DNA of 64,000 bases, taken from positions 1-64,000 of the forward strand of contig JAFGPS010000079.1 of NCBI GenBank assembly GCA_016936075.1, written 5' to 3'. Every line of letters begins with the position of its first letter. Positions within the stretch are counted from its first letter, which is position 1. The notes under the pieces are model-generated. The model was not told the DNA's origin and searched no databases. It worked only from the letters and a program-made list of their open reading frames with translations. The DNA comes from Sedimentisphaerales bacterium (GTDB lineage Bacteria; Planctomycetota; Phycisphaerae; Sedimentisphaerales; Anaerobacaceae). Below are positions 8,965 to 26,355 of this stretch, in pieces. A program made the position numbers and the translations under genes.

Positions 8965-9022
8965 ATAGCGAATAATCTGTGTAAATCCGCGTTAATCAGT
9001 GGTTAAAATAGTTGGTTTTATT

Positions 9023-11038
9023 ATGAAAATATCTTTAAATTGGTTGAATGATTATATCGAGACGGGCCTTGATGCCGAACAGATCGCTGAAACTCTCAGT
9101 AATATGGGTTTTCCGTGTGAAAGCATTGAAAAGCTCGATAATGATACTGTAATTGATGTTGAAGTGACCAGTAATCGCGGCGATTGTCTGGGTTATATCG
9201 GAGTTGCTCGTGAACTTTCAGTAGCGACGGGCAAAGAGTTGAAGCTCCCTGTTGTCGTGTTGGACGAGTCCGATACAGATGTGACTCAGTTAGCTCAGGT
9301 CGAAGTAGCCGAGCCTGAATTGTGCGGCAGATATACGGCGAGAGTAGTTGAAGGCGTGAAAATCGGTCCTTCTCCCGACTGGCTTGTTGAACGGCTCGAA
9401 GCGATTGGAATGCGAACTGTTAATAATGTAGTCGATGTGACCAATTATGTAATGATGGAAACGGGCCAGCCGCCTCATGCTTTCGATTACGATAAAGTTA
9501 AAGATGGTAAAATTATTGTTCGTAAAGCGAATAAGGGTGAAAATCTTGTTAGTATAGATGGCTCGAAATGTGAACTGACTCCAGATATGCTCATGATTAC
9601 TGACCCGAATGGGCCGGTTGGTATAGCCGGAGTTATGGGCGGTTTGGAAACTGAAGTCACTGATACGACAAAAAGGATTCTTCTTGAAGATGCTTCGTTC
9701 GACCCGGTTTCTATTCGTACTACATCGCGAAGACTGAGTTTGCCTTCTGAAGCTTCGTTCAGATTTGCGCGTATAGTCGATATCGAAAAAATTGACTGGG
9801 CGTCGCAGAGAACATGCCAATTAATAACTCAACTGGCAGGTGGAAAAGTTGCCAAAGGAGTTATCGATATATATCCGAAAAAGAAAGAGCCTGTAAAAAC
9901 AAGCATGCGGCTGTCACGCTTAAAGAAACTTCTTGGAATTGAAGTCCCTCTCGAAGAAGTTTTAAGAATTCTTACGGCATTGAAGTTCGAGCCTGATTTG
10001 CAGAATGATGTGGTAAGCTGTAATATTCCTACGTGGCGAAGCGATGTTCATCGCGAAGTCGATTTGATTGAAGAAGTAGCTCGCGTTTATGGTTATCATC
10101 AGGTTCCAACCGAGAAAAAAATCCAGATAGAAGTCGTTCCTGTAAACGCAAGGCAGAGACTTACCGATTCTGTCGGGACATATCTCAACGCATGCGGCTA
10201 TTACGAAACAATCAATGTGACATTTACCGATAATATCGTTGCTGGACTATTCAATGAGTCGGATTCCGCTTATCTTTCAGTTAAAGATGAATCGAGAAAA
10301 AGTGCGAATGTACTGCGTCAGACACTTATAGGCTCTCTTATGGGTGTACTCCAGACGAATGTAAACGCCAGGAATTTGCCGTGTAGAATATTTGAAATCG
10401 CGGATACTTTTGTCCCTGCGAAAGACAATAGCGATGGTTTGCCGAATGAAAAAACAAAGCTTGCTCTTGTTTGTGACGGAGATTTGCGAACTCTTACCGG
10501 CGTAGTTGAAGGATTAATAAAAAATATCAGCAGAAATGCGATTATAGAAATCACTCCATCAGATTTGAAATGGGCACAAACAGGCGCGCAAATCAAAGTA
10601 AATTCCCAGCCGATAGGTGTAATGGCAGTTGTCGGTTCTGCGATAAAGGATAAATTCGATTTCAAAGAAATCACTCTATGTGCTGCAGAAATTGATTTCG
10701 AATTTCTACTGCAATTGGAAAAAGGCCAGTTAAATGTAAAACCGATTCCAAGATTTCCTGCGATACAGCGTGACTTATCCATTATAGTCGATGAGGATGT
10801 GACATGGTCGCAAATCGTCAAGGCTGTAGAGGAAAAAGCTTCTACGGAACTTGAGCAGGTTAATTTTACAGACATATATCGCGGCAAAGGCATACCCTCC
10901 GGACAGAAAAGCGTTACTTTGTCACTGCAATTCAGAGACGAAGATGGAACGCTTACCCATGAGACCGTAGATACTTTCCAGAAAGAGATTGTTCAAAACC
11001 TTTGTGATTCTGTGAAAGCAGTTTTACGCGATTCATAA
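9023..11038 (+). CDS. pheT: Phenylalanine--tRNA ligase beta subunit, short form without OB-fold insert
   Basis: The protein has 671 residues. It joins with PheS to form the alpha2beta2 enzyme that charges tRNA-Phe. The N-terminal B1 part starts MKISLNWLNDYIETGL and passes straight into VIDVEVTSNRGDCLGYIGVARELS at about residue 45. In full-length PheT (about 790-800 residues) an EMAP-II-like OB fold of roughly 110 residues sits at that point; it is absent here. The B3/B4 editing region (TNYVMMETGQPPHAFDYD, GIAGVMGG), the B5 region and the C-terminal FDX-ACB anticodon-binding domain (from about residue 573, FPAIQRDLSIIVDEDVTW) are present. ATG 9023 is chosen because the MKISLNWL start is family-typical; the upstream in-frame GTG lies in a repeat. 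pheS is not in the window. Confidence 0.93.
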   Translation: MKISLNWLNDYIETGLDAEQIAETLSNMGFPCESIEKLDNDTVIDVEVTSNRGDCLGYIGVARELSVATGKELKLPVVVLDESDTDVTQLAQVEVAEPELCGRYTARVVEGVKIGPSPDWLVERLEAIGMRTVNNVVDVTNYVMMETGQPPHAFDYDKVKDGKIIVRKANKGENLVSIDGSKCELTPDMLMITDPNGPVGIAGVMGGLETEVTDTTKRILLEDASFDPVSIRTTSRRLSLPSEASFRFARIVDIEKIDWASQRTCQLITQLAGGKVAKGVIDIYPKKKEPVKTSMRLSRLKKLLGIEVPLEEVLRILTALKFEPDLQNDVVSCNIPTWRSDVHREVDLIEEVARVYGYHQVPTEKKIQIEVVPVNARQRLTDSVGTYLNACGYYETINVTFTDNIVAGLFNESDSAYLSVKDESRKSANVLRQTLIGSLMGVLQTNVNARNLPCRIFEIADTFVPAKDNSDGLPNEKTKLALVCDGDLRTLTGVVEGLIKNISRNAIIEITPSDLKWAQTGAQIKVNSQPIGVMAVVGSAIKDKFDFKEITLCAAEIDFEFLLQLEKGQLNVKPIPRFPAIQRDLSIIVDEDVTWSQIVKAVEEKASTELEQVNFTDIYRGKGIPSGQKSVTLSLQFRDEDGTLTHETVDTFQKEIVQNLCDSVKAVLRDS

Positions 11039-11330: not shown

Positions 11331-11391
11331 TGTAAAAAATCAATAGCGAACAAGTAAACAAAAATGAATTTTTTTGATAAGGAGTTTTGAA

Positions 11392-13266
11392 ATGCTAAGC
11401 GAAATCAGAAAAAATGAGAGGAAGTTATTTACCTTTGCAGTGCAGGTCATTATCTGTACTTTGGTAATTTGTTCAGGAATTGCTTCAGCAGAAACAAGAT
11501 TCGCAGATGAAATAGGCAATGTAACAGTTGGAGATTTCAAAGAAACGACTCCAATGAAAGTTCCGTTCATTCTCTGGGGTGGGGACATTCCGACTTTCTA
11601 TGCGAACGGCGGCTTGAAAACTCAGCCGGGTACAATATTCGCAAATCTTGGTTTGAATATCGAACTTGTTCGCGGCGATGACTTTCTTCAGCAGGTAAGA
11701 GACTATATGAAAGGCGATTCTGCGTTTCTCAGGGGTGTTTTCGGAATGCCCAGCCAGGCTTCAGAAGTTATAGGAAGCGATTCGCGTACAAAACCTTATA
11801 TGTTCATGCAAATGACATGGAGTGCCGGTGATCATTGTGTTGCACGTGAAGAAATAAAAACTCTAACAGACTTAAAGGGCAAGAAAATTTGCCTTCAGAC
11901 AGGCGGGCCGCATGATGTCGGTTTTGTCGATGATGTTCTTACAACAGCAGGTTTAAAAAGAGACGATGTGACTTTAGTTTTCGCGAAAGATTTAACCGCT
12001 ACTGCCAACTCACCTGCAGAAATGTTCAGGAAAGACAGTAGTATCGCGGCGTGTTTTGTCGTATCTCCTGATATGATTGGTTTGACAGGAGGTTTCGATA
12101 GTATCGGAACCGGCGCAGAAGGTACCGTTAAAGGTGCGCATATACTCGTATCAACCGCAGAACTTTCTTATTCCATTGCAGATACATATGTTTGTAGAAG
12201 CGATTATTGGACAAAACATTCGGATGTTGTGACAAAATTTGCGGCAGGTTATTTGAAAGCATGCGAGGAAGTAATTGATTTGAAAAAAGCATACGAATCA
12301 AATAGCTCAAGTTCCAATGGTCAAAAATACAGAGCACTTTTGCAAATGGCACAGGATATTTATGGTAAAACCGATATACCTACAATAGAAGATGCTCATG
12401 GTTTGCTTTGTGACTGTACATTTGTGGGTCATCCCGGAAATATCGCCTTCTTCAAACAGGCGAACAATTCTCATGGATTTGACGTTTTCCAGAACAAGCT
12501 GCTCGATATAGTTGTATCAAGAGGGTACGCAAAAGTTCGTCAGGGTATTTTTCCAAGTCCTATTGACTGGAACTCTTCTGCATTCGATATTTTGACAAAA
12601 AAGCAGGTTGCCCGCGGAGAAAGATTTAATCCTGAAGCAGTTCTTAAAGAAATCGAAGCATTAAATCAAGGTTCACTTGATACCAGAACGATTTTATCTT
12701 TTGCTATTAACTTCAAATCGAATCAGGACACTTTCTCTGAATTACAGTATGGTTCCGAATATCAGAGAGTTGTCGATGCTCTTGGAAAATTCGGTAATGC
12801 TGTAATTGCTATCAGGGGACATGCAGATGTCACAAAGGTTCTTTCTGAATGCGTTCAAGCAGGTATGGAAAAGAATATACTGAAACAATCAGGCACTACC
12901 GGAAACTATAATTATTATCTCAACGGCAGGCCGCTTGATCTTAACTCTACTGCAGAAATAGTAAAGCTTATCGATAATGGTTCGTTCGATGGAAGTGCCA
13001 ATCATAATCCGAGGGAAGTTATGAATGCCGCACGTAATTTATCGAGAAGCAGAGCAGAGGCCGTTCGCGATTCCATCGTGGATTTTGCAAGGAAAAATAA
13101 TATAACCCTGGATATAAGCCAGATTCAGCCGGTGGGTGTCGGTGTAAAAGAGCCGCTCATTACAAAACCGAGTAATATGGCAGAAGCAGAGCAGAACATG
13201 AGAGTTGAGTTCAGGATTATCAGAGTAAACGCCGAAGCAATCAATCCTTCTGATTTTGATTTCTAA
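11392..13266 (+). CDS. Periplasmic solute-binding protein fused to OmpA peptidoglycan-binding domain
   Basis: The protein has 624 residues. The signal peptide is at about residues 1-35 (ends IASA). Residues about 45-330 match NMT1/SsuA-type solute-binding proteins: an ILWGGDIPTFYANGG opening, LTDLKGKKICLQTG as the second-lobe entry, and an AACFVVSPDMIG strand. Residues about 436-615 form an OmpA-like domain with ILSFAINFKSNQDTF, AIRGHADV and a late SRSRAEAVRDSIVDFA...VGVGVKEPL stretch; an extra segment of about 55 residues interrupts it. It is the first gene of the ten-gene cluster. ATG 11392 is preceded by AAGGAG at 7 bases, so the longer frame from TTG 11374 is rejected. Inferred role: a cell-wall-anchored ligand sensor or binding protein for the ABC transporter encoded downstream. 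Confidence 0.8.
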   Translation: MLSEIRKNERKLFTFAVQVIICTLVICSGIASAETRFADEIGNVTVGDFKETTPMKVPFILWGGDIPTFYANGGLKTQPGTIFANLGLNIELVRGDDFLQQVRDYMKGDSAFLRGVFGMPSQASEVIGSDSRTKPYMFMQMTWSAGDHCVAREEIKTLTDLKGKKICLQTGGPHDVGFVDDVLTTAGLKRDDVTLVFAKDLTATANSPAEMFRKDSSIAACFVVSPDMIGLTGGFDSIGTGAEGTVKGAHILVSTAELSYSIADTYVCRSDYWTKHSDVVTKFAAGYLKACEEVIDLKKAYESNSSSSNGQKYRALLQMAQDIYGKTDIPTIEDAHGLLCDCTFVGHPGNIAFFKQANNSHGFDVFQNKLLDIVVSRGYAKVRQGIFPSPIDWNSSAFDILTKKQVARGERFNPEAVLKEIEALNQGSLDTRTILSFAINFKSNQDTFSELQYGSEYQRVVDALGKFGNAVIAIRGHADVTKVLSECVQAGMEKNILKQSGTTGNYNYYLNGRPLDLNSTAEIVKLIDNGSFDGSANHNPREVMNAARNLSRSRAEAVRDSIVDFARKNNITLDISQIQPVGVGVKEPLITKPSNMAEAEQNMRVEFRIIRVNAEAINPSDFDF

Positions 13267-13325
13267 AAAACATCGAGAAAAATTATATTTATCTAAAATT
13301 CTAATTTTTCTATAGGAGACTTAAA

Positions 13326-14276
13326 ATGAAACATAATCTGATTTTAGCAATATTTACTTTTGCTATACTCTTTGCTTGTCGTACTTACTCTCAGGAAACT
13401 GATATAGACAATGTAGTTATTGTTCTTGACGCTTCAGGTAGTATGAATGAAGGAATGAGAGATGCCCAGGGAAAAGAAGTAAAGAAGATTGACGCGGCCA
13501 AAGCCGCTCTTTATGAAGTATTAAATCAAGTCCCGGATACAACCCATATAGGATTATTTGTTTTCAGTTCAACAAGAGGTAGCGGCGTATGGTTCTATGA
13601 TCTCGGACCTAAAGATGACGCGAAACTGAAACAGGCGATTAACTCGATTCAACCTTCTGGAGGAACTCCTCTCGGTACCTATATGAAAGTAGGTGCCGAT
13701 AGACTGCTAAAAGAAAGGGAAAAGCAGTTTAATTACGGATCATACAGGCTGCTCGTAGTGACAGATGGTGAAGCCAATAACGAGAGGCCTAATTTGGTAG
13801 ATGATTATACGAAAGAAATAATGTCAAGGGGAATAACTCTTGATGCTATCGGAGTTTCCATGGCAAACAAGCATACTCTTGCAACAAAGGTTCATAGTTA
13901 TCGTAGTGCAAAAGATCCGGAATCTTTCACACGAGCCGTAAGGGAAGTTTTTGCGGAAATATCTTCTGAAAAGAATGATGTCGCCGGAGAAGATGCATTT
14001 GCTTTAATTGCGGGGATTCCGACAGAAGTTGCAGCCGGGATGATTTCGGCTCTTTCAAATACTGGAAACAATCCGATTGGAGAAAGGTCTGCTCAGCCGA
14101 TAGTTGGTCAGGTTCAGCGTCCACAAAATCCTCCTGTGAGAAATGTTATCCCTCCCCAGGTTCAAACTCAAAGTCATAGAAGAAACGCCCCAATGGCTTT
14201 TATGAAAGTGGTTATAAGTGTATTTATCATAATATTTATCCTTGCAGGAGTTATCAAAATGTCGTCTAATTCATAA
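13326..14276 (+). CDS. Exported von Willebrand factor A domain protein with C-terminal membrane anchor
   Basis: The protein has 316 residues. An N-terminal signal (about 1-22) contains LFAC, which could be a poor lipobox (Cys18). The vWA domain covers about residues 28-215 with a complete metal-ion site: DASGSMN (residues 34-40), the Thr of GGTPLG near 114 and the Asp of VTDGE near 147. A Pro/Gln-rich linker (about 255-290) leads to a C-terminal helix (about 296-313), so the domain should sit in the periplasm tethered to the inner membrane. An AGGAG site precedes ATG 13326, 59 bases after the SBP-OmpA gene. vWA domains bind partners in a metal-dependent way; partners here are presumably other products of the cluster. 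Confidence 0.82.
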   Translation: MKHNLILAIFTFAILFACRTYSQETDIDNVVIVLDASGSMNEGMRDAQGKEVKKIDAAKAALYEVLNQVPDTTHIGLFVFSSTRGSGVWFYDLGPKDDAKLKQAINSIQPSGGTPLGTYMKVGADRLLKEREKQFNYGSYRLLVVTDGEANNERPNLVDDYTKEIMSRGITLDAIGVSMANKHTLATKVHSYRSAKDPESFTRAVREVFAEISSEKNDVAGEDAFALIAGIPTEVAAGMISALSNTGNNPIGERSAQPIVGQVQRPQNPPVRNVIPPQVQTQSHRRNAPMAFMKVVISVFIIIFILAGVIKMSSNS

Positions 14277-14304
14277 AACGACAACATTAGTACAGGAGTA
14301 TAAG

Positions 14305-15867
14305 ATGAGCATTGAAAGCAAAGCCAGAAAAGTCGCTCTTGCTTCGCTTGTATGGATTATAACTGTTCTTATTGTTTTTGGTGGGATTTGGTTTTGGATT
14401 TCACGCTCTAAAGCCAAATTGACAGACGAGACAGGCTCTGCAAGCAAGTACAAAGAAGAGGTTCGGATTATTGCCGACTCCTTTTCCGGGTATGCCGGTT
14501 TGCGCAAATCTTCAGAAGAACTCAAGAGCAAGGGAATCAAGCTTATAGTTCAGGATGATGGTGCGGATTATATAGGAAGGATTAAAGCTTTAAGGGATAA
14601 TAAAGCAGACATGGCTGTATTTACAGTTGACTCATTATTAACCTCCGGTATTAAAATAAAAGAATTCCCTGTCAGTACAGTTCTTATTATAGACGAGACA
14701 AAAGGCGCTGATGCAATTGTTGCTTACAAAAGCGCATTGAAAAATATTCAGGATTTGAATAGAAAAGACGCGAAAATAGTATTAACTCCATCTTCACCGA
14801 GCGAATTTTTGGCAAGAGTCGCTCTGGCGAGCTTTAACCTTCCCGAACTGCCGAACAATTGGATCGAAGAAGCGGACGGAGCAAAAGAAGTATATAACAA
14901 ATTCAGGAAAGCATCGAGAACGGAGCCTAAAGCTTATGTTATGTGGGAACCCTATGTCTCAATGGCTTTGAAAGATTCTGATGCAACGATTATTCTCGGA
15001 AGTGACAAACTCAAAGGTTATATAGTTGATGTTTTAGTGGCAAGAAGAGAATTCATCAAGCAAAGGCCGGATTTAGTTAAGCAGGTTATCCAGGCTTATC
15101 TAAGCACTGCTTACAGTTACAAAGATAACATGCCGAAACTGGTTTTGGAAGATTCCAGGAAAACAGATAGTACTTTGAGCAAAAGTGAATCGGAGCAGGT
15201 TGTAAAGGGAATTCAATGGAAAAACACCCTCGAAAATTATGCTCATTTTAATCTATTGGACAGAAAAGAAGCACGAGGACTGGAGGACCTTGAAACAATT
15301 ATAAGTAAGATTACAGGAGTTCTCGTTACAACAGGCGCAATAAGTCAGGAAGAGGGTGACAATATCGAGCCTACAATTTTGTTTTATGACAGGTTTCTAC
15401 AGGAATTAAAACAGGCTAATTTTCACCCGGGCAAAAAACTTAATATAATTAGCGGAAATACGCTCGCTAACGACGAACAGGTAAGAGGCGATGTCGAATT
15501 GCCTGTGTTAACAGAAGGGCAGTGGGACAGCTTAATTCCAGTCGGGCAGATGAGAGTACAGGATATTAGTTTCAGAAGAGGAACGTCTGAGCTTAGCGAT
15601 TTTTCAAAGCATGATTTGCAGGAATTGACGAGCAAGTTAAAATCTTTTCCTCAATATTATCTCGTGATTACTGGTAATGCCAGAGCCGAAGGGGATCCTA
15701 AGGCAAATTTAAAACTCGCTGAAACCAGGTCGAAAGTTGTAGCAGAATATCTTATTTTAAGATTAGGTATAAGTAGAAACAGAATAAAAACGATAGCTGC
15801 GGAACCTTCAATGACAGGTGGTGACGCTCAATCAGTAAGTTTCCAGTTAGGACAGATTCCTTATTAA
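14305..15867 (+). CDS. Membrane-anchored solute-binding protein with C-terminal OmpA domain
   Basis: The protein has 520 residues. A single helix at about residues 8-29 is followed by a periplasmic SBP domain (about 50-330). Its SsuA/NMT1-like features include DNKADMAVFTVDSLLTSG, TPSSPSEFLARVAL and AYVMWEPYVSMAL. The C-terminal OmpA-like domain (about 420-520) reads DISFRRGTSELSDFSKHDL, then YYLVITGNARAEGD and LAETRSKVVAEYL, as in peptidoglycan-binding OmpA modules. The protein would bridge inner membrane and cell wall. ATG 14305 has an AGGAG site at 14294-14298. The frame extends upstream to TTG 14242, overlapping the vWA gene, but has no better start there. Confidence 0.8.
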   Translation: MSIESKARKVALASLVWIITVLIVFGGIWFWISRSKAKLTDETGSASKYKEEVRIIADSFSGYAGLRKSSEELKSKGIKLIVQDDGADYIGRIKALRDNKADMAVFTVDSLLTSGIKIKEFPVSTVLIIDETKGADAIVAYKSALKNIQDLNRKDAKIVLTPSSPSEFLARVALASFNLPELPNNWIEEADGAKEVYNKFRKASRTEPKAYVMWEPYVSMALKDSDATIILGSDKLKGYIVDVLVARREFIKQRPDLVKQVIQAYLSTAYSYKDNMPKLVLEDSRKTDSTLSKSESEQVVKGIQWKNTLENYAHFNLLDRKEARGLEDLETIISKITGVLVTTGAISQEEGDNIEPTILFYDRFLQELKQANFHPGKKLNIISGNTLANDEQVRGDVELPVLTEGQWDSLIPVGQMRVQDISFRRGTSELSDFSKHDLQELTSKLKSFPQYYLVITGNARAEGDPKANLKLAETRSKVVAEYLILRLGISRNRIKTIAAEPSMTGGDAQSVSFQLGQIPY

Positions 15868-15889
15868 CGATTTAGCAGGGCAGGTAACT

Positions 15890-16633
15890 ATGGATAAAGA
15901 AAGATTCAGGAGGAAGTACCTGTTAGGTATTTTCTTGAGTCCTTTGACACTCTTCCCTGCGGCAGCCGGTTTTACGGGATTTTTGGGTTTTATGCTGTTT
16001 CAGAAAACGGTTAATGCAGTTGTCAGCCTGGCGATTGGATTGGGATTAGGACTCGGAATACTGGCTCAGAGATTGATAATAGGCTCTGAAAAAATTGCCC
16101 AAAAAGCAAAAAAGGAAACCGAAGATGAAGAACGAGCCGAAAGAGAAACGAAACTTGATAAGCTTGATAAAGAATTAAGAAAAACACGTGGCAAGCAGGA
16201 CGAGGAAGCATTAAGAGAATTGAGGTTTTTAGTAGATAATTTTAATAAGAGTGATTTATGGAAGCAAAGCCTGGATGCTGTTTCAGCAAATAGCTTACTA
16301 TCAACGATAGATGAGATTTTTGAGCAGTGTTTAAGCTCTTTGTATCAAACCATCCAGCTTTACCAACTTGCTCAGGAAGCTCCTTCAAAAAGAATAAGTG
16401 ATTCGATTCTGGGAAAACGTGACTCAATTATAAAAGGAGTTCAGGACAGCGTCACCAGGCTGAATGTGACACTATGTGCGGCTCAGGAGTTGAGAGTCTC
16501 GAATGATCAGGAAGCAAAGCTTTCGAGATTAAGCGAAGAGCTTACGAGCCAGCTTGATATTGCAAAACGTGTCCAGGAAAGGCTGGAGAATATCCGTTTG
16601 AACGATTATGATGCTGAAAATACAGCTATGTAA
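15890..16633 (+). CDS. Membrane protein with long coiled-coil domain
   Basis: The protein has 247 residues with two hydrophobic helices at about residues 11-32 and 37-58. A highly charged coiled coil follows (about 65-115, rich in K, E, R), then a helical domain to the end. I recognise no family. The helical C-terminal part could interact with the PspA homologue encoded 76 bases downstream. GGCAGG lies before ATG 15890, and the gene follows its upstream neighbour by 22 bases, so co-transcription is likely. Confidence 0.7.
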   Translation: MDKERFRRKYLLGIFLSPLTLFPAAAGFTGFLGFMLFQKTVNAVVSLAIGLGLGLGILAQRLIIGSEKIAQKAKKETEDEERAERETKLDKLDKELRKTRGKQDEEALRELRFLVDNFNKSDLWKQSLDAVSANSLLSTIDEIFEQCLSSLYQTIQLYQLAQEAPSKRISDSILGKRDSIIKGVQDSVTRLNVTLCAAQELRVSNDQEAKLSRLSEELTSQLDIAKRVQERLENIRLNDYDAENTAM

Positions 16634-16709
16634 ATTTACTTTAATATAAGTGTTTTCGTAAAGAAAAGAGTAATTGGAGTTTAAGAGCAATTATTTAAGG
16701 AGAACCTAA

Positions 16710-17528
16710 ATGGGTGCAATAGGCAGGTTATTCAGAAACATGTGGTATTTTCTGACTGGAAAAGTCGACAGGATGAGCGAAGGTATGGAAAAAGATCCTA
16801 CCGTCATTAGAAAACAATTCGATGTGATAATCGAACAAAGGAAGATGAGCATCAATCAATATGTCGAAGCAGTCTCCGGTTTAATTGCCGTCCAGGAAAA
16901 GAAAAAAGCCCGGCTCGAGTATGCCTCGAAAGAGCTTGATAGATTATCTACTCTGCAGGATGGCGCTATTGCTATGGCAAAGAACAGGATGAAGGAGCTT
17001 CAGAAGCAAGGTATGACGAAAGAGCAGATAGAAGCAGATGCTACCTATATGAAATGCCTCACAGGCTATCAGGATTTTGCTTCATCCATCACTCAATATG
17101 AAAGTGAGTGCAAGGCTCTTGAAGATGAGATACAGACATCTCAAAAAGAAATTGATAGTCACAAGCTTCGTCTTGAGCAGCTTAAGAGGAGTATCGCGGA
17201 AGTCAAGAAAGAGAAAGACGCGACTGTCGCCGATATAATTTCAGCTAGGGAAGAAGATGGAATTAACAAAGTTCTGGCCGGAATATCGACAGATAAAACA
17301 GGAGAAATGCTCGAACGTCTAAGAGATAACAGGCAAAAAGCGAAAGCACGAGCCAGAACTACAAGAGAACTTGCTCAGACTGATACCGCACAAAGCATGG
17401 CGGAATTTGAGAAGTTTGCCTCTGAAAGTGTCGCGAAAACTAACTTTAATGATCTTATTGGCCTTGGTGATCAGCCTTCAGTTGAGACTCCTTCTGAAGA
17501 TAAGCCTGGAAAGATTTCTGAAGGTTAA
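16710..17528 (+). CDS. PspA/IM30 (Vipp1) family protein
   Basis: The protein has 272 residues and is almost entirely helical. The N-terminus MGAIGRLFRNMWYFLTGKVDRM corresponds to the membrane-binding amphipathic helix plus helix 1 of PspA/IM30. A coiled-coil hairpin follows (about 25-190, with VEAVSGLIAVQEKKKARLE) and then acidic, low-complexity C-terminal residues. PspA/IM30 proteins belong to the ESCRT-III superfamily; they polymerise on membranes and protect or remodel them under stress. The gene has its own AAGGAG site. Here it is embedded among ABC transporter genes instead of the classic pspABC set, and an AAA ATPase is encoded in the same cluster. Confidence 0.82.
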   Translation: MGAIGRLFRNMWYFLTGKVDRMSEGMEKDPTVIRKQFDVIIEQRKMSINQYVEAVSGLIAVQEKKKARLEYASKELDRLSTLQDGAIAMAKNRMKELQKQGMTKEQIEADATYMKCLTGYQDFASSITQYESECKALEDEIQTSQKEIDSHKLRLEQLKRSIAEVKKEKDATVADIISAREEDGINKVLAGISTDKTGEMLERLRDNRQKAKARARTTRELAQTDTAQSMAEFEKFASESVAKTNFNDLIGLGDQPSVETPSEDKPGKISEG

Positions 17529-17600
17529 TTTGCTTTTTCCCATTTAATATTAATAGAGTTTAATTTTTAAAAAATATTTACGAGATTAAGGAGAAATAAA

Positions 17601-18794
17601 ATGAGGACTATGAAGAGTTTAATAATTGTGTTTGCTGTCATGGCATTAACGACCGGAAGTGTTTTAGCGGCGGAGACTTTTTCTCTTACATGGAGTGAGT
17701 ATCCTTCATGGAGCGTTTTCGGTGTTTGTGAAATGTTAAAGTTCACAGAGACAGACGGAAAATGGGCGATTGATACGAAAGGTGAATATCTTCTTGACGG
17801 GAAAGCAGGCAAACAGGGTATAATCGAAAAGAAATGGGATGTCGATATCGTTCTTCTTGAAAAAGATTATGATACATGCATTTCATTTTATGCGACGAGT
17901 CAGTGTGATGCGGTATGCATAACAACTCTTGATGTATTGCCGATTGCACTATCAAGAAGCTCTGTAGTTATCATGCCCACTTCGACAAGCTTCGGTGCAG
18001 ATGCGCTTATTGTTGGAAATGATATTAAAGAAGTAAGCCAGCTTAAAGGTAAGAGTGTTTACGGCCTTTCCAAAAGTGTATCAGAGTACACATTTGACAG
18101 GAATATTGAGATTCTAAAGCAGAACGAAAAAGACTATAAGTTTGTTCACAACGACCCGGGAGCAGCCGCAGTTGCATTCCAGCAAAATAACAAAAATTAT
18201 ACAGGTGTAGTTGTCTGGAATCCTTTTGTAATGTCAACACTTGCAAACAGGAAAGACTCGCATGTATTATTCAGTTCTGAAAGTATCCCCGGAGAAATTA
18301 TTGACTCGGTTGTGATGGCCAAAGGCTCGCTCGAAAAAGCATCCGGCAAAAACGGCGCATGTGCAATAGCCGATGCTTATTACACTCTATCTAAAATTCT
18401 TGCTCAGAAAGATACTCAAGACCAGACACTTGTCGCATTGGGAAAGAAATTTTCCAATCTCAACGCAGAGCAGATGAAAACAGTTGTAAGACAGACAAGA
18501 TTTTATGCTACGCCTGAGATGGGAATTTCCTTTATGGAAGGTGGAGTTGTCTTTCCGTGGAAGAAAACTGTGGAAGATACTTCAGACTTGTTTACAAATG
18601 CAGGATTTGATGCCAGGAAATCCGAAGTGACAACAAAAACTCTCAAGGAGCTTATGCCTTTTGTAGTAAAGTTCTGTGTTGATAAGGAAATGACACCGAA
18701 ATCGCCAGTTATAAGTTATGGTAAAGCTGATGATAATACACAGATGCTTTTTGATGCCCAATATATGAAGGCGGTCCTTGAAAAAAATAAATAA
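17601..18794 (+). CDS. ABC transporter solute-binding protein (SsuA/NMT1-like)
   Basis: The protein has 397 residues with a cleavable signal peptide at about 1-24 (VLAA). The domain is a type II periplasmic binding fold: QCDAVCITTLDVLPIALSR lies at the ligand hinge, followed by SQLKGKSVYGLSKSVSEY and a VVVWNPFVMS strand like the corresponding strand of the 14305 protein. It has no OmpA domain, so it is the free, diffusible SBP of the cluster. ATG 17601 follows AAGGAG at 17588-17593. An intrinsic terminator lies directly downstream (18810-18858). The ligand cannot be told from sequence; relatives bind sulfonates, nitrate or pyrimidine precursors. Confidence 0.85.
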   Translation: MRTMKSLIIVFAVMALTTGSVLAAETFSLTWSEYPSWSVFGVCEMLKFTETDGKWAIDTKGEYLLDGKAGKQGIIEKKWDVDIVLLEKDYDTCISFYATSQCDAVCITTLDVLPIALSRSSVVIMPTSTSFGADALIVGNDIKEVSQLKGKSVYGLSKSVSEYTFDRNIEILKQNEKDYKFVHNDPGAAAVAFQQNNKNYTGVVVWNPFVMSTLANRKDSHVLFSSESIPGEIIDSVVMAKGSLEKASGKNGACAIADAYYTLSKILAQKDTQDQTLVALGKKFSNLNAEQMKTVVRQTRFYATPEMGISFMEGGVVFPWKKTVEDTSDLFTNAGFDARKSEVTTKTLKELMPFVVKFCVDKEMTPKSPVISYGKADDNTQMLFDAQYMKAVLEKNK

Positions 18795-18809
18795 AAAAGC
18801 AGAGCTTTT

Positions 18810-18858
18810 ATAAAGAGTGTCTTGGTTGATCGCTTATAATCGGGCACTCTTTATTTTT
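18810..18858 (+). terminator. Intrinsic terminator inside the envelope cluster
   Basis: Perfect 10-bp arms ataaagagtg (18810-18819) and cactctttat (18845-18854), extended by wobble pairs, are followed by TTTT. It sits between the SBP gene and the permease gene and should lower expression of the downstream four genes. Confidence 0.75.
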
Positions 18859-18902
18859 AGAATTTATTAATTGTTTTTGATAAATTTGAATATGGAGTGT
18901 AT

Positions 18903-19832
18903 ATGACAATTTCTGCTCTGAAATATTTTTTAGTAATTTTTGTGTGCCTTATTTGGATAGTAAAAATTGCGGTAAGTGAAAAAACTATCAGAAAAGCTCT
19001 ATCAAAAAGAGATGCATTTATTCTGAGAATGTTGTCACTTATTATCCTGATTAGCGTTTATCTGTTCCTTTCGCACAGACAGCATTTAATTAATCCTGAT
19101 GATAGTACTATGCCTACAATATCTCAGCTTGGTAAAGGTCTTCAGAGTATTTATAAAGCAGATGAATTCACTGAAGAACGATGGATTGTAGTCGATGCCA
19201 AAGCAACTTTCTCAAGATTTTTCCTTGGCCTTGCCTTTACTATTGTTTTGTCAATAAGCTGGGGAATTTTAACCGGCTGCTTTAAGATATGGAGAGAAAG
19301 CTCAATTCTTCCGTTGGTGTTTTTCTCCTTCATTCCTCCAACAGCAGCTATGCCGGTTTTCTTTGTAACAATGGGAACTGACATGGCAATGTATGTTGCG
19401 CTTATTGTATTTGGAACTTTTCCAATATTAGCCCGGACAATTTGCCTGGCGGTTGACGAAATTGATGAAGAATTCATTTTTAAATCACAAACACTCGGAG
19501 CCTCGAAATTAGAAGTAATTTATAATGCGATTTTCAAGCAGATTCTTCCCAAAATTATTGACAGCGTTCGCCTTCAAATTGGAATAGCGGTTATTCTTTT
19601 AATCGCTGCGGAAATGATGTGCGGAGATGCTGGATTCGGTTATAGGATAAGGATACACTACAAACTGGCAAACATGTCAGTTCTTTATCCATACTGTGCG
19701 TTCTTAGCAGGATTTGGTTTTATTATTGACGCAGCATTCAGGAAGATTAACGCGTGTTTATGTCCATGGTATTTCAATCTTCCCGCCAAAAAACGTTCCT
19801 GTCATTCAGGAAGGATAAATAATGCAAAATAA
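18903..19832 (+). CDS. ABC transporter permease (SsuC/TauC-like)
   Basis: The protein has 309 residues with about six to seven hydrophobic segments. The BPD_transp_1 domain spans about residues 95-285. The coupling (EAA) loop is recognisable at about 185-215: SQTLGASKLEVIYNAIFKQILPKIIDSVR. After it comes AAEMMCGDAGFGYRIR, close to the conserved AE...G.G of SsuC/TauC proteins. ATG 18903 has GGAG at 18894-18897. The stop overlaps the start of the ATPase gene by 11 bases, so the two are translationally coupled. It presumably pairs with the ATPase and one or more of the three SBPs. Confidence 0.88.
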   Translation: MTISALKYFLVIFVCLIWIVKIAVSEKTIRKALSKRDAFILRMLSLIILISVYLFLSHRQHLINPDDSTMPTISQLGKGLQSIYKADEFTEERWIVVDAKATFSRFFLGLAFTIVLSISWGILTGCFKIWRESSILPLVFFSFIPPTAAMPVFFVTMGTDMAMYVALIVFGTFPILARTICLAVDEIDEEFIFKSQTLGASKLEVIYNAIFKQILPKIIDSVRLQIGIAVILLIAAEMMCGDAGFGYRIRIHYKLANMSVLYPYCAFLAGFGFIIDAAFRKINACLCPWYFNLPAKKRSCHSGRINNAK

Positions 19833-20835
19833 AGATATAGTTCTTGAGATAAAAAATGTTTTTCACAATTTCGGGAAAAAGTATGTCCTCTGGGATGTTA
19901 ATCTCGAAGTTGTAGCAGGTGAGATCGTAGGATTAGTTGGCCCGAGCGGCTGCGGAAAATCAACTCTACTGAGAGCGATTCTTGGTACGCACCCGGCGGC
20001 ACGAGGTGTAATTACGGTACATAGCGGCCCGAATAATAAAGAACTTAAAATTGTTAAAAAAGCAAACAGGGACTGCGGCATTGTTTACCAGAAATATACT
20101 CTGTTTCCTTTTTTAACTGCTCTTGAGAATGTTGCAGTCGGGTTAAAGTTGGACGAATCGAATTTGTTCCAGAGAAGTTTAGGCAAATTTATGAAGTTTG
20201 ATTTTCCATCAGGAAAAATGAGATGGGGCCAGCTAAGAAAAATTCATCTCGAAAAAGCAGCGACTTTGCTCGAAAAGCTCAGGCTGAAAGATGCAATGGA
20301 TAAATACCCAAGAGAGCTTTCAGGCGGAATGTGCCAGAGAGTAGCAATCGCACAGTCACTCATCATGAAACCGAAAATACTGCTTCTTGATGAGCCGTTT
20401 GGTGCATTGGACGAAGCGACAAGAGAAGAGCTTCAAACTATGCTCCTTGAGCTATACGATGAAAACGTCCATGCAAAAAGTAAAGGTGAAAAGCCTCCTT
20501 ATACAATTATAATTGTCACGCACGAATTGAATGAAGCAATTCTGGTTGGTGACAGAGTAATTGGACTGTCGCAACACTGGGACTCAAAAACCGTTGGAGA
20601 TTCCAGGGCGATTAATGCTTCGACAATAGTTTACGATTCAAAATCACCTGTTTTCCAGCCGAATAAGGAAAGAGATTACGGCTCGTTTGCACAGCAGAGA
20701 AAAGAGATAAGAGAGTTTGTATTTAATCCTTATTTCCTTCCGAAACCGTCTGAATTTAGATTGCATTTCTGGGAACAGGTTGAACATGGAGATGGTGAGG
20801 GTATATTAAAATTAGGAGAGACAAAAGATGAGTGA
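19822..20835 (+). CDS. ABC transporter ATP-binding protein (SsuB/TauB-like)
   Basis: The protein has 337 residues with complete ABC ATPase motifs: Walker A GPSGCGKST (about 40-48), Q-loop VYQKYTLFPFLTALENV (about 88-104), signature LSGGMCQRVAIAQSL (about 167), Walker B LLLDEPFGALDEATRE, and switch His in VTHELNEA (about 232). It is longer than SsuB/TauB (about 255). There is an insert of about 35 residues before the signature (NLFQRSLGKFMKFDFPSGKM...) and a C-terminal extension of about 90 residues that could be a docking site. Its last 8 bases overlap the AAA ATPase gene. Confidence 0.92.
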   Translation: MQNKDIVLEIKNVFHNFGKKYVLWDVNLEVVAGEIVGLVGPSGCGKSTLLRAILGTHPAARGVITVHSGPNNKELKIVKKANRDCGIVYQKYTLFPFLTALENVAVGLKLDESNLFQRSLGKFMKFDFPSGKMRWGQLRKIHLEKAATLLEKLRLKDAMDKYPRELSGGMCQRVAIAQSLIMKPKILLLDEPFGALDEATREELQTMLLELYDENVHAKSKGEKPPYTIIIVTHELNEAILVGDRVIGLSQHWDSKTVGDSRAINASTIVYDSKSPVFQPNKERDYGSFAQQRKEIREFVFNPYFLPKPSEFRLHFWEQVEHGDGEGILKLGETKDE

Positions 20836-22660
20836 GAAAAATGAGGTGAGTTACGGCTTTCTGGCAAAACTTGGGAGGACCTTAAATGCAGGACAATCAA
20901 AAGTTGTCGCATTGACTGGAAATATTTTAGACTTGTTTTTCTCGAGTCAGGAAAACGATTATGTCCCATTAACAAACTTTTTGATATCGAGTTGGGACAC
21001 TCCTGATATGAATAAATGGTTTATTAAAGTAGTTTATGAGTTGAATAAACCAGTACATTTTCTAAATGATCAGGATAAAGAAGATGTAGAAGAAGCATGG
21101 GTAAGAGTACATACTCACCCCAATGCTGAACAGGCAGTAGAAAAAGTAATCAGGCCGTTTTCATTTGAAAAGGCAGATAAAGAAGCAAAAGAAAGTTTCG
21201 AGAATGCCTTAAAACTTACTGCGGAAAACTCATTCTTTGCACTTGAATTCCTCAGGCAGTTATGTCTGGTTTCAAGAGTAAAAGTTAATGGAAAACAAAT
21301 TCTTAACAGGGACCTGATTATTCTTGTCGAAGGTGCTGATTTACTTATACCACAGGGCGAAGTTTCAAGGATTTCTGAGAGCGACAGGAGAAAAGTTGCT
21401 ATTTGCAGGGACTGGTTCTGCGATCCTGAATTTATGAATGGAAGCGACTCAGTGGTTTTTATAGCTGAATCCAGGAGCAGGCTAAACGAGGAAGTTTCTC
21501 ACCTGCCGCAATTATTGGAAGTTGAAATTCCATCTCCCAATGAATCGCAGCGAGAATCCTTTATCTCATGGTTTACTAAAAAACAATCAGAAAACCGAAA
21601 ACCGAAATTTTGGAAAGGAGGTTCTGCAGAGAAATTTGCAGGCTTAACGGCAGGACTTTCTATACACGCTTTAATGCAGCTTTTGAAGGAAAAAAGCTAT
21701 TTAAGCGAAAGTATCGAAGAAAAAGATATTATCGTAAAAGTTTCGGAATATATTGTGAGCCAGCTTGGCGGCGAAGATGTCGTAGAGTTTTACAGGCCGA
21801 AACACAAACTACTTGATGTTGTCGGGAACGAAAAACTTGTAAATTTCCTGAAAGAAAAATTTATACCGAGAATAAAACAGAAAGAAGGCTGTATTTCGGG
21901 AGCAATTGTCTGCGGGCCTATAGGCTCGGGAAAAACTTTTATTTTCGAAGCAGTAGCGGCAGAGCTTGGGATTCCGGTTCTTGTCTTGAAAAATTTAAGA
22001 AGCAAATGGTTTGGTGAGACAGATGTGATTTTTGAGAGGTTACGTAGATGTCTTGAGTCTTTGGGTAAAGCTTTGATTTTTGTTGATGAAGCGGACACAC
22101 AGTTTGGCGGACTGGGACAGGGTGTTCATGAAACTGAAAGAAGACTGACTGGAAAAGTACAGGCTATGATGTCTAATCCTGTTTTAAAAGGTAAGATTGT
22201 CTGGTTATTAATGACGGCTCGAATCAACATGCTATCGCCGGATATAAGAAGACCCGGAAGATGTGGTGACTTTATAATTCCTGTTCTTGATCCGATTGAC
22301 GAAGATTTAAAAGCATTTGTAAGCTTTGTGCTAAAACCAGTTATGAAAAATGCTTCGGAACAATTTCTCGCAGAGTTAGCCGAAATAATGAAAGGATACT
22401 ATGCGGCTGCGTTTGCATGCCTTAAGGACGATTTGATTTCTTATCAGATTTCACAAATGTCTAAAGATATAAGTGAAAACGAGATAAAAGGGATTATCTC
22501 TGACAGGATTCTGCAAAAGGGCGGTACTGCAAGAAGAGTACAGGAATTAAATGCGCTTCTTAACTGCTCTCACAGGTCATTGCTTCCGTACAGTGAAAAT
22601 TTCGAGCAATCAATAAAGCAATGGGAAGATGAATTAAAACATTTGGAAAAACTTTATTAA
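20828..22660 (+). CDS. AAA+ ATPase with degenerate first domain, coupled to the ABC transporter
   Basis: The protein has 610 residues. Residues about 1-320 are a non-canonical region that ends like a dead AAA/RecA module (VVFIAESRSRLNEEV, then LPQLLEVEIPSPNESQRESF). Residues about 325-600 are a canonical AAA domain: Walker A GPIGSGKT (363-370), pore-region SKWFGETDVIFERLRRCL, Walker B ALIFVDEADTQF, and arginine-finger region DIRRPGRCGDFIIPV. The sensor-1 position is MTARINML. The plan resembles Ycf46-type ATPases and the 7057-8544 protein. Its start overlaps the ABC ATPase gene by 8 bases. Inference: it remodels a product of the cluster, with PspA the obvious candidate because ESCRT-III polymers are handled by AAA ATPases such as Vps4. 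Confidence 0.82.
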   Translation: MSEKNEVSYGFLAKLGRTLNAGQSKVVALTGNILDLFFSSQENDYVPLTNFLISSWDTPDMNKWFIKVVYELNKPVHFLNDQDKEDVEEAWVRVHTHPNAEQAVEKVIRPFSFEKADKEAKESFENALKLTAENSFFALEFLRQLCLVSRVKVNGKQILNRDLIILVEGADLLIPQGEVSRISESDRRKVAICRDWFCDPEFMNGSDSVVFIAESRSRLNEEVSHLPQLLEVEIPSPNESQRESFISWFTKKQSENRKPKFWKGGSAEKFAGLTAGLSIHALMQLLKEKSYLSESIEEKDIIVKVSEYIVSQLGGEDVVEFYRPKHKLLDVVGNEKLVNFLKEKFIPRIKQKEGCISGAIVCGPIGSGKTFIFEAVAAELGIPVLVLKNLRSKWFGETDVIFERLRRCLESLGKALIFVDEADTQFGGLGQGVHETERRLTGKVQAMMSNPVLKGKIVWLLMTARINMLSPDIRRPGRCGDFIIPVLDPIDEDLKAFVSFVLKPVMKNASEQFLAELAEIMKGYYAAAFACLKDDLISYQISQMSKDISENEIKGIISDRILQKGGTARRVQELNALLNCSHRSLLPYSENFEQSIKQWEDELKHLEKLY

Positions 22661-22729
22661 CATGAGGATGGCTTGCTTTTTTTATATGGCAAAAGACCAT
22701 CAGTATTGTCTTAGGGAAAGGAAAAAGAA

Positions 22730-23221
22730 ATGGCGAAAAAAGTAAAAGCTGCAAAAAAGAAAGTTGCAAAGAAGCAGGAAAAAAAGCAAAAAGATAAAAA
22801 GCAGACAAAGAAACAGAAGAAAGAAGCTAAGAAAAACAATATGAGTCACTCTGTTTCTCAGAAGGTTTTACAACTGTTAATGGATGAAGGTCAGATGTCG
22901 GCCGATAAAATAGCCAAAAAAATAGGTAGGAGCAAAGTTTTTGTGAACAAGGTTATAAATGGCGAAGCGACTTTGTCTGCTGAAGAGCTTGGTAAACTCA
23001 CAAAGGCAGTTGGCAGTTCTCTTGGCAGTTCTTTAATTAAAAAGATTTCTGACATAACAATGGACGATGTGAAAGAAGCCGCGGAAAAAGCAAAATCCGC
23101 CGCCGCAAAAGCTGTTAAAGGAACACCGGATTTTACATCAGATGTTCTTAAAAAAGCATTAAAAGAAGCTGGTAATGTTATTCAATCTGCCGGTTCATTT
23201 CTTAAAGGACTTGGGAGCTGA
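22730..23221 (+). CDS. Lysine-rich protein with helix-turn-helix-like domain
   Basis: The protein has 163 residues. The first ~38 are nearly all Lys, Ala, Gln and Glu, like histone H1/HU-tail sequences. Residues about 42-88 look like an HTH: QLLMDEGQMSADKIAKKIG then SKVFVNKVINGEATLSAEEL. The C-terminal 70 residues are Ala/Lys-rich helix. It could bind DNA as a cluster regulator, or the basic tail could bind acidic lipids or RNA. An AAAGGAAAA ribosome site precedes ATG 22730. It is the last gene before the terminator at 23292. I do not recognise a named family. Confidence 0.65.
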   Translation: MAKKVKAAKKKVAKKQEKKQKDKKQTKKQKKEAKKNNMSHSVSQKVLQLLMDEGQMSADKIAKKIGRSKVFVNKVINGEATLSAEELGKLTKAVGSSLGSSLIKKISDITMDDVKEAAEKAKSAAAKAVKGTPDFTSDVLKKALKEAGNVIQSAGSFLKGLGS

Positions 23222-23939: not shown

Positions 23940-26279
23940 ATGAAATCCTATTATGTGTTAATTTATTTTGGCACGATATTAACCGCGATTTTTCTTGTAC
24001 CAATTGTATCAAGGTTGGCTAAAAAGCTTCATTTGGTTGATAAACCTGATTCACGTAAGGTTCATCATACTCCTATCCCGCGTGTTGGCGGAGTAGTTTT
24101 CGTTATAACAACTCTTGTTTTCATCGTACCCGGATTTTTCTTAGATAACTACATTGGTGAGTCTTTCCGTGAGTCACAGACACAGTTTATCGTTTTGTTG
24201 GCGGCGGCTTGTTTTGTTTTTATAGTTGGATTTCTTGATGATATACATTCTTTGCCAGGTTTTGTAAAACTTTTAAGTCTTATTGCCGCATCTGTTGCAA
24301 TATGTGCATCCAGTGCCACATTACAAACGATTTCAATTGGTCAGTGGGAGATAAATACCGGCCTAATATCGTGGCCTCTTTCTATTCTCTGGATAGTAGT
24401 AATAACTGTTGGAATGAACTTTATTGATGGGCTTGATGGTTTAGCAGCAGGTATAGCGGCATTCGTATGCGGAACTATTTTCGTTATTGCTCTTTTGAGC
24501 GGCCAGGCAGCGATGTCCCTGTTAATGCTTGTTCTCGTTGGTAGCGTGACAGGCTTTCTGTTTTTTAACTTTTATCCTGCTAAGATTTTCATGGGTGACT
24601 GTGGTTCAATGTTTCTCGGATTTATGATAGGAGCGGGAAGTCTTGTTTGTCAGGCCAAAACGGCAACATTTGTTGGTTTGGCGATACCTTTTCTTGTGCT
24701 GGGTATTCCACTTATTGATGCGGCATTCACTATGATTCGACGTGCTATTCTCTATCGCCGTTCGGTATTTTCATCAGAAATGGGACATATTCATCATTAT
24801 TTGCTGGATATGGGTTTGCCGCAACTTACAGCTGTTATTATAATTTACGCATTGACATGCATTAGCGCTTGTATAGGTTTATTAATGCTCACCACAAGCG
24901 GCAGTTGGTCTGTTTTATTATTTGCGGGTGGTTTGATACTTATTTTTGTAGCCTTTATTTATCTCGGAGCTGCACGTGTTCGTGAGACAATAGGAGCTAT
25001 GAAACGAAACAAAACAATTGCTCAGAAAATTAAAGCTGATCAGATTTGTTTTGAGAATGTTCAACTGCGTATGCGTCATAATGTTTCATTCAATGACTGG
25101 TGGGAATCAATTTGTATTCTGGCAAAACAGATGCGGTTTAATGATATGGAATTTTATTTAAGCAACAATGGATGTTCAGAAAAAAAATGTTCATGGGTAT
25201 TAGAAGAAAATGATAATAAAGTTGATTTACTGTCAGATTTTACTCTTCCGATAGGATCGAAAAATTCTGAAACATCAGCACATATAAAATTAAGGACATC
25301 GAGAATAGACTTGCTGGAAATTACCTGCAGGCGTGTTGCTCTTTTAGGACGACTTGTGGATGAATTTCCACCTCCAGAAGAAGTTTTTGAGATTGAAGAT
25401 GAAACAGTGTCTGAGCAGGTTAAACGAAAGGAAAAGCGTGCGATAGGAGAACCTGCGATTATGCCCGCCGCGATTAATGTGATGGGAGTTCCGGTAGTAC
25501 CCTTTACCTCTTATCAGCAGGCTCTTGCGTGTATAGAGCAAACAATAGAATCGAATCAAAAATCGTTCTGGGTTGCAATGAATCCTCAAAAATGTTATCG
25601 CGCATGGCATGAACCGGAATTAATGAAGGTCGTAAATCAGGCTGATGCCGGCATCTGCGATGGCGTTGGTATATCAGTAGCTTCAAAAATACTCAATGGA
25701 ACCAGTATAATTCGATGTACTGGTTGCGATCTTTTCTTCCAAATTATCGCTTTGGCCGAAAAGAAAAAATGGCGAATATTTCTATTAGGCGCTTCCCCTG
25801 AGTCAAATTCGAGAGCCGCTGATAATCTTACACAGCAGCATCCTGAACTTGTAATAGCTGGTAGGCATGATGGTTTTTTTAAAGACAAATCAGAGGTAAT
25901 AGAAGAAATTAACGCGAGTAAATCTGATATTCTGTTTGTGGCGATGGGCTCACCAAAGCAGGAATACTGGATATCGAAAAATTTGGACTCTATCAATGTG
26001 AAATTTTGTATGGGAATAGGGGGCAGTATTGATGTTGCTTCTGGGACTCTGACAAGAGCGCCTAAAATATTTCAAAAAACAGGTACAGAATTTCTGTTTC
26101 AATTAATTACAGAACCACGCAAGAGATGGCCGAGACAAAAGGTGTATTTTCCTTTTTTGTTAATGGTTATTTTTAAAAAGATTTTTGGTACTGCTTTATT
26201 AACTGGAGAAGATGGTGACTCATCAAAGAGACGTGTTGTAAAACCATTAGCTTCGGAACCTCAAAAAAGTAATACATAA
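23940..26279 (+). CDS. Fused WecA-like phosphoglycosyltransferase and WecG/TagA (GT26) glycosyltransferase
   Basis: The protein has 779 residues. Residues about 1-345 are a polytopic MraY/WecA/TagO-type enzyme that moves a sugar-1-phosphate onto undecaprenyl phosphate. Its motifs are VHHTPIPRVGG (about 41), FLDDIHSLPG, NFIDGLDGLAAG (about 160), FMGDCGSMFLG (about 217) and SEMGHIHHYLLDMG. Residues about 365-500 are a soluble middle region of unknown role. Residues about 515-760 are a GT26 domain: AMNPQKCY, GICDGVGIS (about 570), FLLGASPES, FVAMGSPKQEYW and GIGGSIDVASGTLTRAP. Together these would perform the first two steps of lipid-linked repeat synthesis. First gene of the locus, behind the promoter at 23623; AAGGA lies 12 bases before the ATG. 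Confidence 0.9.
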   Translation: MKSYYVLIYFGTILTAIFLVPIVSRLAKKLHLVDKPDSRKVHHTPIPRVGGVVFVITTLVFIVPGFFLDNYIGESFRESQTQFIVLLAAACFVFIVGFLDDIHSLPGFVKLLSLIAASVAICASSATLQTISIGQWEINTGLISWPLSILWIVVITVGMNFIDGLDGLAAGIAAFVCGTIFVIALLSGQAAMSLLMLVLVGSVTGFLFFNFYPAKIFMGDCGSMFLGFMIGAGSLVCQAKTATFVGLAIPFLVLGIPLIDAAFTMIRRAILYRRSVFSSEMGHIHHYLLDMGLPQLTAVIIIYALTCISACIGLLMLTTSGSWSVLLFAGGLILIFVAFIYLGAARVRETIGAMKRNKTIAQKIKADQICFENVQLRMRHNVSFNDWWESICILAKQMRFNDMEFYLSNNGCSEKKCSWVLEENDNKVDLLSDFTLPIGSKNSETSAHIKLRTSRIDLLEITCRRVALLGRLVDEFPPPEEVFEIEDETVSEQVKRKEKRAIGEPAIMPAAINVMGVPVVPFTSYQQALACIEQTIESNQKSFWVAMNPQKCYRAWHEPELMKVVNQADAGICDGVGISVASKILNGTSIIRCTGCDLFFQIIALAEKKKWRIFLLGASPESNSRAADNLTQQHPELVIAGRHDGFFKDKSEVIEEINASKSDILFVAMGSPKQEYWISKNLDSINVKFCMGIGGSIDVASGTLTRAPKIFQKTGTEFLFQLITEPRKRWPRQKVYFPFLLMVIFKKIFGTALLTGEDGDSSKRRVVKPLASEPQKSNT

Positions 26280-26355
26280 AACATTATTTAAATCTCTAAA
26301 AAAGAATTAATGTGCGATAGAGAAGCATATGAGTTAATTCAAGGAGACGTTTGAA

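Follow-up and report, generated by a model that had tools for sequence, protein, structure and literature searches.

A planctomycete gene cluster links a divergent PspA/Vipp1-like protein and a two-domain AAA ATPase with a variable set of envelope-directed proteins

We analysed a gene cluster in a stretch of 64,000 nucleotides (hereafter the window) from a Sedimentisphaerales bacterium of the Planctomycetota (assembly GCA_016936075.1, contig JAFGPS010000079.1, positions 1 to 64,000 of the forward strand). The cluster consists of ten open reading frames (ORFs), all on the + strand, at 11374/11392-23221; genes 7 and 8 overlap by 11 bases and genes 8 and 9 by 8 bases, so that the layout given in an earlier interpretation made from the letters alone (the sequence-only reading) was confirmed by the ORF coordinates. 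Comparative evidence identifies a PspA/Vipp1-like protein (gene 5) and an AAA ATPase (gene 9) as the constant core of this cluster, to which solute-binding proteins (SBPs), a vWA protein, a membrane coiled-coil protein and, in most genomes, an ATP-binding cassette (ABC) transporter are joined. The ten genes are the following, with TM denoting transmembrane and HTH helix-turn-helix.

11374..13266 (ATG at 11392), + strand: gene 1, exported NMT1/SsuA-type SBP with a divergent C-terminal OmpA-like domain (Pfam NMT1, 25.8 bits)
13326..14276, + strand: gene 2, exported vWA protein with a C-terminal TM segment at residues 292-310 (Pfam VWA, 50 bits)
14302..15867, + strand: gene 3, SBP with an N-terminal TM anchor (residues 11-29) and a C-terminal OmpA domain (Pfam OmpA, 46 bits; NMT1, 22 bits)
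15890..16633, + strand: gene 4, N-terminal TM hairpin (hydrophobic stretches 11-29 and 41-59) followed by a helical/coiled-coil domain of no known family
16710..17528, + strand: gene 5, divergent PspA/Vipp1 (ESCRT-III superfamily) protein (profile and predicted fold)
17601..18794, + strand: gene 6, free periplasmic SBP (SBP3), nearest to TIGR03427 and taurine-binding protein (PDB 6ssy, E=2.2e-8)
18897..19832, + strand: gene 7, TauC/SsuC-like ABC permease with a conserved TLGAS...LP coupling segment (Pfam BPD_transp_1, 52.9 bits; alignment)
19822..20835, + strand: gene 8, ABC ATPase (Pfam ABC_tran, 114.6 bits)
20828..22660, + strand: gene 9, AAA ATPase with two AAA domains, a degenerate one at the N-terminus and an active-type one at the C-terminus with KWFG as pore loop (Pfam AAA, 56.7 bits at 360-482)
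22730..23221, + strand: gene 10, lysine-rich Cro/C1-type HTH protein (Pfam HTH_3, 27.9 bits)

Pfam cut-offs were passed by the vWA domain, the OmpA domain of gene 3, the BPD permease, the ABC ATPase, the AAA domain and HTH_3, as well as by the NMT1-type SBP family in genes 1 and 3, and Pfam and NCBIfam together supported SBP families for genes 1, 3 and 6. Most domain assignments of the sequence-only reading thus stood, the weaker ones being PspA, which lies below the cut-off and needed profile and fold comparison, and the OmpA domain of gene 1, which has no Pfam match.

By profile and predicted fold, gene 5 is a divergent PspA/Vipp1 protein. A profile built from 15 gene 5 relatives matched solved PspA/Vipp1 chains with E=1.7e-6, including the ELAGxD motif, and the top three PDB matches of the AlphaFold model in a Foldseek search were all Vipp1 (E=5.5e-4 to 2.7e-3). 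The model contains helices at residues 3-15, 30-99, 111-192 and 198-239, that is, an amphipathic N-terminal helix, a long helical hairpin and further helices. With E. coli PspA as a single-sequence reference, hhalign gave no match to gene 5. The genome of the window, which is 89% complete, contained no other PspA at E<=1e-3.

The anatomy of gene 9 is, by sequence comparison, that of a threading ATPase with a VCP/Vps4-type active domain. Its N-terminal half aligned with its own C-terminal half (hhalign, E=2.5e-5) and is a degenerate AAA domain, in which a P-loop was found in none of 68 relatives. The C-terminal domain, scoring nearer to VCP/Cdc48, retained Walker A in all 68; in nearly all, Walker B was kept as well, together with a pore loop of the aromatic-x-G form. 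Because this loop motif was among the patterns that selected the first-choice relatives, its invariance among them is subject to bias. Independent support came from relatives recruited by hidden Markov model, whose loops read SQWFGQ, SKYVGE, DKWVGS and similar. As a separate observation, the pore loop (SSDFGG) and the arginine-finger region look degenerate in L180 and L181 despite a full cluster.

Relatives of the cluster were collected by an AAA-seeded scan of the genomes of 84,980 species, a separate search seeded with the SBP-OmpA proteins and further genome searches, the SBP and AAA score thresholds being set by hand. This evidence is comparative, and contigs of metagenome-assembled genomes may be misassembled or misbinned, especially in the cases from the candidate phyla radiation (CPR). 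Genes 1-9, all but the HTH gene, occurred in identical order in 13 species including that of the window (window, L035, L039, L040, L041, L049, L051, L052, L077, L078, L177, L180 and L181; for L180, a long ORF of the SBP3 family was counted as SBP3). These belong to Sedimentisphaerales, other Planctomycetota, Sumerlaeota, Victivallales (Verrucomicrobiota/Lentisphaerae) and, within CPR, Parcubacteria and Uhrbacteria; several further clusters were interrupted by contig ends. One planctomycete family carries the AAA gene at the front and the ABC ATPase gene divergently, with the nine genes still together (L080, L081 and L083 with L194-L196).

The co-occurrence in planctomycetes that the sequence-only reading had proposed as a check was examined for the SBP-OmpA and AAA proteins. 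Among 392 Planctomycetota genomes, SBP-OmpA was present in 43, AAA in 67 and both in 39; AAA thus accompanied SBP-OmpA in 39 of 43 genomes, compared with 28 of the 349 others (Fisher p=5e-31), and in 21 genomes the two lay no more than 15 kb apart on the same strand. PspA adjoined AAA in 13 of the 15 Planctomycetota genomes with a high-scoring AAA. Pairwise distances across 14 clusters were positively correlated between all genes (Spearman 0.19-0.86), a pattern to be expected from co-evolution and from shared species history alike. The AAA protein was not found in viral contigs, and plasmids held only distant AAA proteins, the best of which, in Paenibacillus, had no annotated adjoining PspA or ABC gene.

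These data bear on the idea that the genes are unrelated neighbours, placed together by chance or operon inertia. The patchy distribution of AAA would fit it: at the same threshold the protein was rarer in Verrucomicrobiota (20/338) and CPR (1/333) than in Planctomycetota (67/392) and common in Sumerlaeota (11/40). The same nine genes are nevertheless found across phyla, their co-occurrence is as given above, the set is retained after the rearrangement seen in the planctomycete family with the AAA gene in front, and a diverged operon described below repeats the functions. Chance or inertia is already contradicted by the comparative data and is extremely improbable. The cluster is, judged by these comparisons, a non-chance neighbourhood, and the proposal of the sequence-only reading that it forms one machine is well supported by the conserved order and the genome-level co-occurrence.

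The genes of the cluster do not all stay together to the same extent. PspA-AAA pairs without the other cluster genes were found at L036, L046, L050, L117-L121, L123 and L188, and L054 has genes 4-9 only. Two genomes of the Verrucomicrobiota group (L176 and L179) kept genes 1-5 and 9, with SBP3, permease and ABC ATPase gone; the best permease matches elsewhere in these genomes reached about 100 bits, whereas most permeases of type I clusters scored about 300-450. The neighbours of L176 and L179 in the AAA tree are L177 and L178, respectively, which both carry ABC genes, and the PspA-AAA-only loci are interspersed among the full loci, which suggests that the arm was repeatedly lost and the core was kept. 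In genome G185 the set is split, with the seven other genes in L076 and the PspA-AAA pair on another contig (L126); gene 4 of L076, masked by an antisense ORF, was recovered by tblastn. In verrucomicrobial PspA-AAA pairs, one or two small, apparently membrane-spanning proteins of about 95-115 amino acids are enclosed between the two genes (L046, 1647-2298; L050, 9701-9982).

A diverged, type II operon combines vWA, PspA, a TM-anchored SBP-OmpA, permease, ATPase, a different TM-hairpin coiled-coil protein and AAA (L183, L184 and L186; L191 has no recognised vWA). The type II PspA proteins of L191 and L091 lie above the Pfam PspA_IM30 cut-off, with 42.2 and 54.8 bits. The type II coiled-coil protein, encoded between the ABC ATPase and AAA, is a family of its own of about 310 amino acids without significant Pfam match, which is present also in loci beyond the four named.

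Altogether, the comparison of loci indicates that PspA and AAA are the constant core. The sequence-only reading would have been at odds with homologous clusters that mostly lacked these two genes; they turned out to be the most constant parts, and the pairing of PspA with an AAA motor that it proposed is well supported by their linkage with and without the other genes, the motor action itself being presumed. Since L176 and L179 keep the remaining parts without the ABC transporter, the ABC pair belongs to the arm and not to the heart of the cluster. Some loci have the arm but no ABC genes, and others the core but no arm; import would thus be an optional input or output and not the essential activity.

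The loci with ABC genes likely encode a working importer, as the catalytic motifs of gene 8 (Walker A, Q-loop, LSGG, Walker B and H-loop) are all intact in the motif table over aligned orthologues. It could be argued that the whole cluster is a plain nutrient importer for a taurine-, sulfonate- or guanidine-like solute, with PspA and AAA as accessories for membrane maintenance or transporter quality control and the SBP-OmpA proteins only concentrating the ligand at the wall. Apart from the ATPase motifs, this is in line with the conserved coupling segment of the permease, with SBP3 being nearest to TauA and TIGR03427 (110.6 bits for gene 6, below the equivalog cut-off of 333.9), and with SBP3 of Uhrbacteria, which, read by eye, appears to start as a lipoprotein, as is usual for importers without outer membrane. 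However, two of the three SBPs are tethered to wall or membrane, many loci consist of PspA-AAA only, and L176 and L179 keep SBP-OmpA, vWA, coiled-coil, PspA and AAA after the loss of SBP3, permease and ATPase. We therefore regard a plain importer as rather unlikely. In view of the same loci and the intact importer motifs, the suggestion of the sequence-only reading that sensing is coupled to PspA through the ABC pair stays a conjecture.

The proteins placed on the outer face carry features of wall or membrane attachment. Gene 1 has a signal-type hydrophobic stretch at residues 18-36, and its C-terminal domain bears a G-H-x-D ... L-S-x-x-R-A motif with R475, H477, D479 and R554 invariant in the alignment with 8 relatives; Pfam OmpA did not match the window protein and matched only two of the 8 relatives, weakly. 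The OmpA domain of gene 3 retained the Arg and lost the conserved Asp (GNARAEGD), whereas gene 1 retained both in the 8 aligned relatives. In A. baumannii OmpA, such an Asp and Arg are reported to form the diaminopimelate-binding pair, and the residues kept here may bind peptidoglycan likewise. In gene 2 the metal site of the vWA domain (MIDAS; DxSxS, T, D) is intact, with D35xS37xS39, T114 and D147 conserved in the alignment. Gene 4 had no Pfam match, and its model (pLDDT 70, the predicted per-residue confidence) gave no significant fold match.

The placement of the vWA protein is relevant also for the notion that AAA serves as an assembly chaperone for a transporter, coiled-coil or vWA complex, with PspA as a passive scaffold or stress reporter. 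Precedents exist in chaperones that pair an AAA with a vWA protein, such as MoxR-vWA, and in the window the AAA gene directly follows the ABC ATPase gene, with the 8-base overlap. But the vWA protein is predicted to lie outside the membrane (signal-type N-terminus, C-terminal TM segment) and AAA in the cytoplasm, and AAA stays with PspA alone in genomes without a permease orthologue, which makes a chaperone role improbable. A function in anti-phage or other defence is highly improbable: the patchy distribution would agree with it, as would weak hits of PADLOC models for IetA and for ABC proteins in general, but PADLOC gave no match to a specific defence family, the components are directed at wall and membrane, and the cluster contains no nuclease or toxin gene.

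In the window, pheT (8999-11038) lies upstream of the cluster and a WecA/WecG-type glycosyltransferase gene (23940-26279) downstream. The latter begins an exopolysaccharide-type locus (23940-28731), in which a WecA-like transferase fused to a WecG/TagA domain is followed by a Wzc-like tyrosine autokinase with a chain-length domain. The same-genus genome G001 has all ten genes in the same order with 69-91% identity and a different downstream neighbour; the unit therefore ends at the HTH gene. Gene 10 adjoins AAA only in Sedimentisphaerales (L035, and in divergent form L036) and is absent at the other loci. A second classical AAA ATPase, apparently of Ycf46 type, is located near the cluster in both genomes of the genus (window 7057-8544, - strand; L035 14874-16487); the two copies share 38% identity and lie on different sides and strands relative to the cluster. 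No Rfam RNA family was found in the window, and a promoter and terminator scan gave signals no higher than in shuffled sequences.

We consider it somewhat more probable than the opposite that the cluster encodes one layered cell-envelope machine with a PspA-AAA core and an envelope arm. In such a machine the PspA/ESCRT-III protein would form polymers on the cytoplasmic side of the membrane, from which the two-domain AAA ATPase would pull subunits by pore threading, as Vps4 does with ESCRT-III. Gene 4 might be the membrane docking partner. The outer face would be formed by membrane-anchored and wall-tethered SBP-OmpA proteins and the membrane-anchored vWA protein; most genomes add an ABC importer that is catalytically intact and has a free binding protein of its own, and the arm could report envelope state or a ligand inwards to the core. 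A possible recruitment signal is the C-terminus of PspA, which in most proteins of type I has [LI]PE as its last residues, PspA-AAA pairs without ABC genes among them, and is preceded by a low-confidence, probably disordered linker; exceptions are the window protein (ISEG) and the Uhrbacteria proteins (EKLS/ERLT). The stricter version, a true bacterial ESCRT-III/Vps4-like machine in which AAA threads and disassembles PspA, is recruited via the [LI]PE tail and is gated from outside by the wall-anchored SBP and vWA proteins, with or without the ABC importer, is a tentative one that we think less likely to hold than to fail.

Several points weigh against the layered machine. Gene 5 of the window scored 23.0 bits, compared with the Pfam PspA_IM30 cut-off of 33.9, and the confidence of its model was moderate (pLDDT 75.5). 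A direct PspA-AAA contact is putative, the structure predictions being of single chains, and no MIT domain was found in the AAA proteins of 18 relatives; the recruitment bias in the pore loop also counts here. AAA occurred without a recognised adjacent PspA at L122, L124, L125, L127, L130, L134, L192 and L193, and a plain importer would equally be expected to have intact ABC motifs. Gene 4 as a second ESCRT-III protein found no support from hhalign or Foldseek. Irrespective of the arm, the PspA-AAA pair with a threading pore loop, occurring with and without the transporter, is a direct candidate for a PspA turnover ATPase and could be checked in vitro with two proteins, while the ABC-less and split loci show which genes deserve priority.

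On the turnover of bacterial PspA/Vipp1 polymers, Liu et al. 2021 (PMC8281802) raise the question whether PspA or Vipp1 has an ATPase equivalent to Vps4. Makarova et al. 2024 (PMC10936438) describe ESCRT-III plus Vps4 as confined to archaea and eukaryotes. Like ESCRT-III/Vps4 (CdvB/CdvC) of the latter organisms, the cluster has the gene of an ESCRT-III-superfamily protein adjoining that of an AAA ATPase whose pore loop resembles that of Vps4, and gene 9 has the catalytic AAA domain, Walker A/B and aromatic KWFG-type loop of Vps4. In contrast to that system, a dead N-terminal AAA domain takes the place of a detectable MIT domain, PspA is not of the Snf7 branch, and the C-terminal AAA domain is nearer to VCP/Cdc48. 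The Psp system of E. coli (PspA-PspF) likewise pairs PspA with an AAA+-class ATPase in the context of envelope stress; however, PspF is an NtrC-type transcription activator, whereas gene 9 is a classical AAA of VCP/Vps4 type without HTH, and the cluster contains neither PspB nor PspC. Genes 6-8 share the SBP, permease and ATPase families and the catalytic motifs with the TauABC/SsuABC and TIGR03427 importers, from which the cluster differs by two further SBPs that carry fused OmpA domains and by the linkage with PspA, AAA and vWA.

The closest known system was described by Ravi et al. 2024 (PMC11237479), in a genome survey without experiments. They found PspA in bacteria together with a protein of two AAA copies, the N-terminal one inactive, and also longer operons that add an ABC ATPase, a permease and a PBPB-OmpA protein (example OGG56892.1), and suggest membrane remodelling linked to solute transport. 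For gene 4 as a candidate for their TM-bearing Snf7 homologue, no profile or fold relation to PspA was found. A literature search for vWA or SBP-OmpA proteins with PspA yielded no further description. The statement of the sequence-only reading that it knew of no described system with this full content holds only in part, the operon type being that of this survey. With PspA, a two-AAA protein with a dead N-terminal copy, ABC ATPase, permease and SBP-OmpA, the window cluster is a member of the operon kind of Ravi et al.; the main text of their paper does not include vWA, the second SBP-OmpA together with a free SBP (three SBPs in all), the HTH gene, or the ABC-less, split and type II forms. Relative to that main text, the main addition is that PspA-AAA forms the constant core whereas the ABC pair is an arm that can be dispensed with.

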